From Sorex araneus (taxonomy: Eukaryota > Chordata > Mammalia > Eulipotyphla > Soricidae), in NCBI RefSeq assembly GCF_027595985.1, contig NC_073304.1, positions 141,120,925 to 141,184,924 of the forward strand: 64,000 nt of DNA, in the 5' to 3' direction. The notes beneath the pieces are model-generated. The model ran no database searches and was not told the DNA's origin. It saw only the letters and a program-made list of their open reading frames with translations. The translations under genes were made by a program, and so were the position numbers. Position 1 is the first letter of the stretch; every line of letters begins with the position of its first letter. Of this stretch, positions 16,705 through 34,560 are shown piece after piece.

Positions 16705-18618
16705 TTTTCATTTTTTTATTTTAATGGATAATTGTGAGATACAGTTACAGACTTACAAATTTTTGTGATTACATTTCAATCAAACAATGTTCGAGTACCC
16801 ATCCTGCTACCAGTGCCCATTCCCCACCACCAATGTTCCCAATGTTCCCTCCCGCCACCTCCACTTCTTCCCACCCCCTGCCTCTTACACATTCCCTCTT
16901 ATACTCTTTCTCCTTTTGGGTGTTATGGTTTGCAACATAAGTACTAAGCAGCCATCATGTTTGGTCCATAGCCTAATTTCAGCATGCATCTACCGTCCCA
17001 AGTGATCCCTCCAACTATCATTTGCTTAGTGGTCTCTTCTCTATCCCACATGCCTTTTCCCCCAGCACATAGGATCGGCTTCCAAGCCTTGGGGCAATTC
17101 TCCTGGCCCTTATCTCTAGTATCCTTAGGTGTTTTTCTCCTATTATGTTGCTTTATATTCCACAAATGGGTGTAGTCATTCTGTGTCTGCCCTACTCTTT
17201 CTGACTCATTTCACTTAGCATGATATTCTCCATGTTGACCCACTTATGTGCAAATTTTATGGTTTCATCTTTTCTAACAACTGCATAGTATTCCATCGTA
17301 TAGATATACCAAAGTTTCTTTAAACAGTCATCTGTTCCCAGGCACTCGTTTTTTCCAGATTCTGGCTATTGCAAAGAGTGCTGCAATAAACATACAAGTG
17401 GGGATGTAATTTCTACTGTGCTTTTTTGCATCTCTAGGACATATTCCCTGAAGTGGTATTGCTGGGTAAAATGGGAGCTCAATTTCTACTTTTTTGAGAA
17501 ATGTCCATATTGTTTTCCAAAAAGGCTGGACTATGCAGCATTCCTACCAGCATGAAAGAGAGTCTTCTTCTCCCCACATCCACACCAACACCGGTTGCTT
17601 TTGTTTTTTTGGATGTGTGCCAGTCTCTGTGGTGTGAGATGATATCTCGTTGTTTTGATCTGCATCTCTCTGACGATTAGTGGTGAAGAGCATTTTTTAA
17701 TATGTGCCTTGTGCCTTTTGGCATAAGGATTTCTTCTTTGGGAAAGTTTCTGTTCATTTTCTCGCCCCATTTTCTGATGAGGTTCGATGTTATCTTCTTG
17801 TAGAGTTCAGCAAGTACCTTGTACATCCTTGATATTAACCCCTTACTGAAGGGGTATTGGGTAAGTATTTTTTCCCATTCTGTAGACTGTCTTTGTGTTT
17901 TGGTCACTGTTTCTCTTGAGGTGCAGAAGCTTCTTAGTTTGAGATAGTCCCATTTTTAAAATCTGTTTCCACTTACTTGGTCAATTGCATTTTGTCCTTG
18001 AAGATACCTTTAGTTTCAATATCATGGAGGGTTTTGCCGACCTTTTCTTCAATATACCTCATGGATTATGGTCTGATGTTGAGGTCTTTAATCCACTTTG
18101 ATCTGACTTTTGTGCATTGCTAGGTAGAGGTTAGGTTAGGTAGAGGTCTGAGCCCATTTTTTTGCATGTAGCTGTCCAGTTTTGCCAGCATCATCTGTTA
18201 AAGAGAATTTCCATGCTCCACTTCACATTTCTTGCTCCCTTATCGAAGATTATATAATTATATACTTGAGGGTGTGTGTAAGGAATATTCAGCCCTATTC
18301 CACTGGTCTGTGGATCTGCTTTTGTTCCATTATCATGCTGCTTTAATTATTACCACTTTGTAGTACAGTTTGAAGTTGGGGAAGGTATTGCTCCCTCATC
18401 TTTTTTCCCCAAGAATTGCTTTAACTATTTGTGGGGGTTTGTTGTTCCATACGAATTTCAGGAGTGTTTGATCAATTTCTTTGAAGAATGTCATGGGTAC
18501 CCTTATAGGGATCGCATTGAATCTATATAATGCTCTGGGGAGTATTGCCATTTTGACAATGTTAATTCTCCCAATCCATGAGCATTGGATGTGTTTCCAC
18601 TTCCTCATGTCTTCTTTT
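16705..18618 (-). mobile_element. L1, antisense: 3' UTR and ORF2 C-terminal half
   Basis: Collinear on the minus strand with 26095-28000 of the L1 at 22358-28006. On the minus strand it encodes broken pieces such as '[14 protein letters not shown]' (18608), 'MPFFKEID'-like RT thumb sequence and the CxxxC/HxxxxC end ('CWCGCGEKK', 17590 region). Several stops and frameshifts make it dead. It is interrupted at 18618 by the DSCC1 retrocopy and resumes at 19832. Confidence 0.93.
18605..18618. repeat. 14-bp target site duplication, left copy
   Basis: TCATGTCTTCTTTT, identical to 19818-19831. It lies within L1 ORF2 sequence ('cctcatgtcctctttg' in the 22358 copy) and marks insertion of the unit 18619-19817. 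Confidence 0.88.
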
Positions 18619-18831
18619 CACTGTATCACTGTCATCCCATTGTTAATCAGTTTACTCGAACAGGAGCCAGTAACATCTCCATTTGTCCCAGCCCTGAGAT
18701 TTTAGCAGCCTCTCCTTACTCGTTTTTCCCAATGATTGGAGGCTCTTTTTAGGGCCAGGGGAATGAGACCTGTTATTGTTACTGATTTTGGCATATCGAG
18801 TACACCAGTCTTTTCTGTGAGGGCGGGATAG
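18619..18831 (-). mobile_element. RTE-derived SINE tail on the DSCC1 retrocopy
   Basis: On the minus strand this contains 'tactcgatatgccaaaatc', 'aggtctcattcccctgg', 'gagaggctgctaaaatctc', 'atggagatgttactgg' and ends 'gggatgacagtgatacagtg'. It is the same SINE as 34285-34560, 5'-shortened, and shares its 3' end with the RTE at 46255-46333. The target duplication directly abuts its last base, and there is no poly(A). Confidence 0.85.
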
Positions 18832-19817
18832 AGGTAAAGACATACTAAAATAGGAAATAACACTGTCATTTGTCCTTGCTTATACTATGCACATAATAAT
18901 AACAACCTGAAAAGCATAAAAATATCCTGATATAGTTTTAAAAAGTGTGGCATTTCAAAATGCTTATGAGAAAAATGCTTTAAAATATTAGACTTTGAAA
19001 GTTTGTGATACATGTAAAAAATAATTTTCTTATAACCAGCAACTTTATAAAGAAATATAGTCCAAAAGACTTGTTCTTTTAAGATATGGTTCTTCTTGAA
19101 TTATAAACTTTGATATCATTTTGCATCGAACATCGAGAATATTTAGTGAGTAATGTGCCTATGGTTTGCTTCTCCCCACACAAATCTTGGATATATGGAG
19201 CAATATCTTCCTCTGTCCACTTCTCCATACAGAGAAAAGACTATCAAAACGCTCCTGATTACCCTCAGGTAAATCATCTACTTTAAGCAAAAATATGATT
19301 TCTGGCTGGAGTGTATCCACCAAGGCTCACCTCTGAAGCTTAAGATCACCCCTTAAGAGATAAATTCCAACAAGAATAGTGAGTTCTGTGTTGAAACTTC
19401 AACAACAATAGTGAGTTTTGTGTTGAGATATGGAATGTAATCAAGGTAAAGAGAAAAGGAAGTGAAATTTATCAGTTATGCAGGGGGGGTAGTTGGGGGT
19501 GGAGGGTGGGATGTATACTGTTTTATTTTTGGTGGTGGAATATGGGCACTGGTGAAAGGATGGGTGTTTGAGCATTGTATAACTGAGACATAAGCCTGAG
19601 AACTTTGTAACTTTCCACATGGTGATTCAATAAAAAAAAAGAAACCCCCCAAAAAAAAGATCACCCCTTAAGCTGATCAAGGTTAGTTACCATTCCTTCA
19701 GGAACACTCTGTTGCCACACCTCTTGAAACTCACTGAGGTTAAATTTCACTGCATTCTGCAGTAGCATTTGGGCTGTTGCTCTGCATATTTTGTCAGCAC
19801 TCATACTGCATATTTTG
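18832..19817 (-). pseudogene. DSCC1: DSCC1 processed pseudogene (5'-truncated, antisense)
   Basis: DSCC1 (DCC1) is a subunit of the CTF18-RFC clamp loader that acts in sister-chromatid cohesion and replication. Here the minus strand encodes its C-terminal third without introns: ADKICRATAQMLLQNAVKF and EFQEVWQQSVPEGMVTNLDQ (19657-19817), LQPEIIFLLKVDDLPEGNQE (19250-19320) and KWTEEDIAPYIQDLCGEKQT through KVYNSRRTIS followed by a stop at 19079-19081. About 240 bp of 3' UTR follows, then the RTE-type SINE tail. Damage includes a one-base deletion near 19225-19232 and an L1-related insertion at 19358-19656. A 14-bp target duplication brackets the unit, so it is a retrocopy and not the parental gene. 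Identification rests on recall of the DSCC1 protein; the match is long and collinear. Confidence 0.9.
19358..19656 (+). mobile_element. L1-related 3' end inserted in the DSCC1 retrocopy
   Basis: Bracketed by the perfect 16-bp repeat AAGATCACCCCTTAAG (19342-19357 and 19657-19672). It ends 'aactttccacatggtgattc' then 'aataaaaaaaaagaaaccc', like the variant 3' UTR at 11983-12545. 5'-truncated. Confidence 0.9.
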
Positions 19818-19831
19818 TCATGTCTTCTTTT
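19818..19831. repeat. 14-bp target site duplication, right copy
   Basis: TCATGTCTTCTTTT, identical to 18605-18618. L1 sequence continues immediately to the right (ATTTC), then the SOR insertion. Confidence 0.88.
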
Positions 19832-19836
19832 ATTTC

Positions 19837-20008
19837 TTTTTTTTTCTTTTTTAGGTCACACCTGGCGATGTGCAGGGGTTATTCCTGGCTCTGCACTCAG
19901 GAATTACTTCTGGCGGTGCTCTGGGGATCATATGGGATGCTGGAAATTGAACCCAGGTAGGCAACGTGCAAGGCAAATGCCCTACCCGCTGTATCATCGC
20001 TCCAGCCC
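19837..20008 (-). mobile_element. SOR SINE, antisense, with target duplication
   Basis: Poly-T start, 'ggtcacacctggcgatgtgc', 'aggaattacttctggcgg', 'catatgggatgctgg', 'gtatcatcgctccagcccc'. Flanked by CTTCTTTTATTTC (19824-19836) and CTTCTTTTCTTTC (20009-20021). Confidence 0.95.
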
Positions 20009-34284: not shown

Positions 34285-34560
34285 ATCACTGTATCACTGT
34301 CATCCTGTTATTCACCTATTTGCTCAAGCAGGCACAAGTAATGTCTCCATTGGTCGCAGCCCTGAGATTTTAGCAGCCTCTCCTTAATCATCCTTCCCAA
34401 TGATGCCATATTGGAAGCTCTTTCAGGGTCAGGGGAATTAGACTCATTTTTGTTACTGTTTTTGGCATATCGAATATGCCACAGGGAGCTTGCCAGGCTC
34501 TGCCATATGGGCAGGATACTCTCAGTAGTTTGCTGGGCTCTTCGAGAGGGATGAAGAGTG
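34285..34560 (-). mobile_element. RTE-derived SINE (internally deleted RTE)
   Basis: On the minus strand this reads in order: 'agcctggcaagctccctgtg', 'catattcgatatgcc', 'taattcccctgaccctgaaa', 'gagaggctgctaaaatctc', 'agggctg', then 'ccaatggagacattac', 'gtgcctgcttgagcaaat', 'ggatgacagtgatacagtg'. The first RTE-like block equals the 5' edge of the RTE at 42040-42125. The last equals its 3' end at 46258-46333. The join falls right after 'cagggctg'. Confidence 0.88.

Follow-up and report, generated by a model that had tools for sequence, protein, structure and literature searches.

Mammalian retrocopies of cellular mRNAs are credited to L1 and its preference for poly(A), and in L1 transductions and SVA elements passenger sequence is carried with the element's tail. 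Several related arrangements are documented (PMC5322556, PMC13174262, PMC3747384, PMC4476161, PMC13295347). L1 also leaves tailless copies, mRNAs among them (PMC5322556), and chimeras of L1 with diverse RNAs have been catalogued (PMC13174262). Tabulated short interspersed elements (SINEs) with the 3′ tail of an RTE-type long interspersed element (LINE) include the pairs Bov-tA/Bov-B and Afro SINEs/RTE1, among others (PMC3747384). U6 RNA has been found joined to RTE in Anolis (three chimeras with RTEX-2) and in opossum, there without clear duplications, and L2 and RTE LINEs are stated to form only chimeras (PMC4476161). In the literature we searched, with partial coverage and few subscription papers, we found no case of a protein-coding mRNA retrocopied by RTE. 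Here we analyze a 64,000-nt stretch of the Sorex araneus genome (RefSeq assembly GCF_027595985.1, contig NC_073304.1, positions 141,120,925 to 141,184,924; the window), which contains a retrocopy of DSCC1 that ends in an RTE tail instead of poly(A).

The unit lies on the minus strand (contig C3), bracketed by a perfect 14-bp duplication (TCATGTCTTCTTTT, at 18605–18618 and 19818–19831 of the window). In the element sense, its parts are:

19818–19831, minus strand: target-site duplication AAAAGAAGACATGA, 5′ copy, from the repeat analysis
19804–19817, minus strand: additional 14-nt piece at the 5′ end, outside the match to the parental exon, which begins at query nt 15
19657–19803, minus strand: DSCC1 coding sequence, block 1, 98% identical to C2:108019178–108019315 over query nt 15–152
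19082–19341, minus strand: DSCC1 coding sequence, block 2, with frameshifts and no intron at the parental splice site
18836–19081, minus strand: DSCC1 stop codon and proximal 3′ untranslated region (3′UTR), ending ...TATGTCTTT, from comparison with the parent
18619–18835, minus strand: 3′ end of a 5′-truncated RTE LINE, 217 nt, beginning ACCTC and ending GATGACAGTGATACAGTG, from comparison with RTE copies
18605–18618, minus strand: target-site duplication AAAAGAAGACATGA, 3′ copy, from the repeat analysis

Block 2 reads through the parental splice site before AGATTTGTGTGGGGAG (19187–19172) without an intron, and the stop codon at 19081–19079 is followed by 243 nt of 3′UTR down to 18836. With its frameshifts, the DSCC1 unit is a pseudogene. 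The RTE part terminates in GGGATGACAGTGATACAGTG and abuts the duplication directly; no poly(A) lies between them, the only A's being the AAAA that opens the duplication itself. In all of this the locus bears out the original prediction, made from the letters alone, of a perfect duplication around an intronless minus-strand DSCC1 copy with its 3′UTR and no poly(A). The prediction of one unit holds in that a single duplication brackets the whole, but only after a later insertion at 19358–19656, which has its own 16-bp duplication, is excluded. At the 5′ junction, the final TGA of the duplication doubles as the first bases of the DSCC1-like match (microhomology). Within the 14-nt piece, CAAAATATGCAG repeats DSCC1 sequence found 24 nt further in, and a slip-like duplicate, CTGCATATTTTGTCA, occurs at 19782–19796 and 19806–19820; the piece may be the scar of a reverse-transcriptase slip.

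We then compared the unit with its parent. The Pfam domain Dcc1 (PF09724) was found at five places in the genome (ten first-look candidates scored), namely the unit, with 46.4 bits, and four exon matches on contig C2 at 108.010–108.020 Mb, with 52.8, 48.7, 38.8 and 31.3 bits. A genome search with the unit's first coding block likewise matched the unit itself and a single place on C2. The parental DSCC1 there (L063) has introns, one splice site immediately preceding AGATTTGTG, and its 3′UTR continues past the junction point without RTE sequence (TTTAATATGTCTTTGTGTCTACATA) to an AATAAA 699 nt beyond the junction, two ATTAAA coming sooner. Over the last exon and 3′UTR, unit and parent differ at 28 of 339 sites. 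Searches of solved structures with two DSCC1 peptides returned no match at E ≤ 0.001.

The tail had been predicted to be an RTE-derived SINE touching the duplication. It is an RTE tail in that position, but it contains a stretch without counterpart in the local RTE-tailed SINE, and we therefore read it as the 3′ end of the LINE and reject the SINE identity. The LINE is most likely the shrew element RTE1_Sar, a name taken from PMC6542046. A genome search with the RTE tail gave at least 40 loci including the unit, from 3705 first-look candidates; all 40 were extracted, and 15 have open reading frames upstream. Translated by eye, an old frame in the RTE 3′ end resembles what we take to be the C-terminus of RTE proteins. 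RTE copies were sampled in 264 kb, comprising the window and 20 further 10-kb stretches, including three near the window. The final RTE part was reached at 25 places, 19 of which match just about the last 65 nt; at least 14 of these 19 have, by reading, a tRNA-like head within the 170 nt examined, presumably SOR. This tRNA-headed SINE with an RTE tail suggests that the shrew RTE mobilizes RNAs besides its own. Of the 18 accepted RTE copies, 4 stop at the very tail nucleotide at which the unit stops, two more being ambiguous, and the unit's 20-nt tail occurs at two places in the window at ≤ 3 mismatches (the unit and 34287–34306; expected, 0.00). The composite SINE, with a SOR-like tRNA head, RTE pieces and the RTE terminus, was seen at L042, L052, L055, L056, L041, L047, L060, L049 and L057.

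The prediction had called for a genome search for other retrocopies ending in this tail, and two were found, with the same junction. The 3′UTR query gave five places, all scored: the unit, the parent on C2, L062 on C12, L065 on C7 and L064 on C1. DSCC1 passes into RTE sequence at the same point in the C12 (TTTAGTATGTCTTTACCTCTCGGAGAG) and C7 (TTTAGTATGTCTTTACCTCTCAGAGAG) copies. A 67-nt junction query gave 14 places, again all scored, of which three have the junction, one is the parent and ten match on the RTE side only, beginning at query nt 27 or later (four inspected). The junction is thus present in 3/3 DSCC1-derived insertions that extend to that point of the 3′UTR (C3, C12 and C7). Each of the three terminates in the RTE tail and has no poly(A). 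Their flanks and target duplications are distinct, and so is the extent of 5′ truncation: the C12 copy starts inside the last exon, the C7 copy 34 nt before the junction and the unit far upstream. In the C12 copy the duplication (AATGTCTAACATTA/AATGTCTAACAGTA, 13/14 identical) is flush with both ends of the insertion. The next 276 nt of 3′UTR beyond the junction matched the parent only in the genome search, and no retrocopy. The C1 copy (C1:230989874) is a DSCC1 retrocopy that ends 44 nt short of the junction, its ends not resolved. It carries a composite-SINE insertion beside the stop codon, and no poly(A) was seen.

The three insertions probably stem from a single type of chimeric RNA that was copied three times or more. 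Because they have the same junction, DSCC1 and RTE were most likely joined in one event, in a common source RNA. A template switch private to the window copy is very unlikely. We give virtually no credence to an ordinary L1 retrocopy of DSCC1 in which an RTE element inserted separately later, the outcome that the original prediction had named as fatal to it. Nothing but the commonness of both kinds of element speaks for such a history; it is contradicted by the single duplication that brackets both parts, with none found around the RTE part alone, and by the identical junction at three unrelated sites.

How did DSCC1 mRNA come to carry the tail? We lean slightly towards an RTE copy in the 3′UTR of a DSCC1 allele absent from the assembly, by which the spliced mRNA became an RTE substrate. 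A 5′-truncated RTE LINE would have joined the 3′UTR in sense after ...TATGTCTTT, most likely by insertion, in an allele that would since have been lost or is not carried by this assembly. Spliced mRNA of that allele would bear the RTE 3′ recognition tail. The RTE enzyme would recognize this tail in trans and nick new sites, and reverse transcription would start at the tail and proceed leftwards into DSCC1 until the enzyme drops off. This model needs no additional transcribed founder and agrees with the mixture of DSCC1 variants seen in the copies.

The other origin that we considered is a founder made by template switching, in which the reverse transcriptase would have left the RTE RNA where a stable hairpin begins on its 5′ side (TTTAC|CTCTCGG) and switched to DSCC1 mRNA at a TTT microhomology; the founder would then have been transcribed and re-copied via its RTE tail as a small retroposon family. 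The original prediction had set a SINE in the parental 3′UTR against a switch, and by its rule the parent, which has no RTE at the junction, points to the switch. However, the recurrent junction most likely places the joining in a common source RNA, and for this a 3′UTR allele and a switch-made founder are equally good explanations. The junction does coincide with the 5′ edge of such a hairpin, as predicted on a hand-typed consensus. Some RTE copies read TTTACCTCTCGG or TTACCTCTCGG, so that a TTT microhomology can account for the overlap, and in L072, an RTE copy on C4, the duplication encloses 27 nt of other sequence at this RTE position. LINE-to-RNA switching also has a reported precedent in U6 with RTE in Anolis (PMC4476161). 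A switch nevertheless requires a transcribed founder, and none was found in the assembly, while the C3 and C12 copies lie on different DSCC1 variants, which is easier to reconcile with a recombining allele than with one founder. On balance we regard a switch-made founder as unlikely, though well short of negligible. The L072 locus itself (C4:161462218, about 1450–1900; duplication AAATCCTTTTCT, with the 27 nt separating it from the RTE start TTACCTCTCGG) is a possible second chimera.

A number of observations weigh against the explanation that we favor. No source allele or founder was found in the assembly. As an RTE target the junction is unremarkable, since 38% of 3′UTR positions fit equally well, or 21% with the copies' variant base, and this test is uninformative as proof of an RTE insertion site there. 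On the RTE side of the junction, the unit retains just 5 nt (ACCTC) before a gap, three of which differ from the parent's GTGTC; because the gap follows ACCTC, the unit's membership in the trio rests on the shared DSCC1 end point and these 5 nt. The C7 duplication (TGGTGTGA/TAGTGTGA) is weak (7/8 bases, by reading). Rare RTE variants in common number zero for the unit and C12, zero for the unit and C7 and two for C12 and C7, and the unit has three in common with each of two other RTE loci, L013 and L015. As evidence of a single source for the RTE parts, these pairwise counts conflict. Groupings within the DSCC1 part are star-like and conflicting as well: C12 and C1 have variants in common at three sites (two adjacent), C3 and C1 at two adjacent sites, and C3 and C12 at one site plus a common gap; CAGTG is found in C12 and C1, and CGATG in C3 and the parent. 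The variants that the unit has in common with L013 and with L015, but not with C12 or C7, are poorly explained by both origins and would be explained by a second switch inside the RTE part, at the missing hairpin. Compared with C12 and C7, the unit lacks 27 nt between 18831 and 18830, corresponding to one predicted hairpin of the RTE RNA, and 14 nt between 18807 and 18806, part of a second predicted hairpin. The gaps coincide with the predicted hairpins as though the enzyme had skipped them.

We next asked which enzyme cut the target sites. Insertions of Bov-B and other RTE elements start at T|A and have a run of T's roughly ten bases further upstream (Tn-TA; PMC13295347). Our local RTE reference consisted of 18 accepted sites from 24 rows (19 RTE sites in a second scoring), and the L1-driven reference of 36 of 79 SOR SINEs that had a detectable duplication and were assumed to be L1-driven. 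Each site was scored as the log2 ratio of RTE over L1 in two scorings, both based on small profiles. RTE sites have T|A in 13/18 cases (a shift of ≤ 3 bases towards T|A being allowed) and ≥ 4 T in −15 to −5 in 18/18. L1-driven SINE sites have ≥ 3 A in the first four bases in 25/36 and T|A in 15/36, with T counts of 0 to 8.

The C12 site, with TTTT at −10 to −7 plus T|A, scored +3.0 and +4.5, and this copy was likely inserted by RTE. The C7 site scored −1.2 or +2.7, depending on register. The window copy weighs against the favored explanation: its target, AAGAAAT|AAAAGAAG, scored −10.2 and −8.9, under every RTE site (lowest −5.7 of 18 and −4.5 of 19) and within the range of the 36 L1-driven sites (−16.4 to 7.6, first scoring). 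The unit may have inserted before or after a neighboring SINE; in the former case, the scores are −13.2 and −9.8. T's in −15 to −5 number 5 at the C12 site, 7 at C7 and 0 at the unit (3 if it preceded the SINE). The RTE machinery of the original prediction is supported for the C12 copy and less so for the window copy, whose cutting enzyme is less certain: the 3′ end is a standard RTE terminus, but the site looks L1-like.

In the window copy, the L1 endonuclease may have cut AT|AAAA, and the L1 reverse transcriptase may have started on the chimeric mRNA near the RTE end without poly(A), as happens in tailless retropseudogenes. Such an insertion concerns the enzyme of this copy alone and is compatible with either origin of the chimera. 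Beyond the score, which lies among the L1-driven sites and outside both RTE sets, the loss of a whole predicted hairpin and of part of another may be the mark of a foreign enzyme, and tailless L1 copies of mRNAs are known (PMC5322556). Under internal L1 priming, however, the standard RTE terminus would be a coincidence, the C12 and C7 copies have the same kind of tail with T-rich upstream flanks, and an RTE copy, L008, also lies at T|AAAAA. We consider L1 insertion of the window copy a serious possibility but incline against it.

Two neighboring features have duplications of their own:

19358–19656, plus strand: later insertion splitting the DSCC1 part, with a 16-bp duplication AAGATCACCCCTTAAG at 19342–19357 and 19657–19672
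19832–20008, minus strand: SINE adjoining the unit, with an A-rich tail and a duplication AAGAAAGAAAAGAAG/AAGAAATAAAAGAAG that overlaps the unit's

We take the first to be a 5′-truncated L1 and the second to be of SOR type. A 32-nt tandem repeat (19362–19425) occupies the 5′ end of the first. The unit's host site has a computed frame that we take to be L1 ORF2. T stands at the base preceding the duplication in 4/5 related L1 copies compared, and the T before the unit's duplication is therefore probably old.

Set against the known systems, the unit resembles L1 processed pseudogenes in being an intronless copy of a spliced mRNA with a target-site duplication, 5′ truncation and, for the window copy, a T|AAAA-type site (AT|AAAA, similar to TT|AAAA). 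In contrast to them, it has no 3′ poly(A), ends in an RTE terminus and is missing the distal 3′UTR. Like an RTE-mobilized element, it shares its 3′ end with an RTE partner (217 nt), whereas its head is DSCC1 mRNA and not a pol III small RNA. As in L1 transductions and SVA, a passenger travels with an element's tail, but here the tail is of RTE type and the passenger would enter by transcription through an element in the 3′UTR. Tailless retropseudogenes are likewise without poly(A), with flanking duplications and an L1-like site as in the window copy, whereas the unit ends in a LINE terminus, as do its two sisters, one of them at an RTE-like site (PMC5322556). RTE-tailed SINEs also place a foreign RNA on an RTE 3′ tail and multiply in trans, but with tRNA or 5S heads in place of a spliced protein-coding mRNA, of which three copies were found here (PMC3747384). 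U6–LINE/RTE chimeras similarly join a second RNA to a LINE part in a single insertion; here an mRNA takes the place of U6, one junction recurs at three sites and, unlike in opossum U6–RTE, duplications are present (PMC4476161).

For RTE1_Sar, horizontal transfer into shrews, with parasitic nematodes involved, has been proposed (PMC6542046). Since 3/3 junction-reaching copies are RTE-tailed and no copy was found with the next 276 nt, our results suggest that a host mRNA with the element in its 3′UTR can be mobilized by a LINE that is stringent in reading its tail. Whether this amounts to a second mammalian retrocopy route beside L1, in which a nematode-linked RTE mobilizes tail-bearing spliced host mRNA in trans and an insertion in the DSCC1 3′UTR founded a nascent retroposon family, seems to us evenly balanced. 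The proposal yields a rule that is testable genome-wide, namely that retrocopies ending in RTE tails may be sought in cow, shrew, elephant and marsupials. The DSCC1–RTE copies would illustrate how SINE-like families with an mRNA head could begin.

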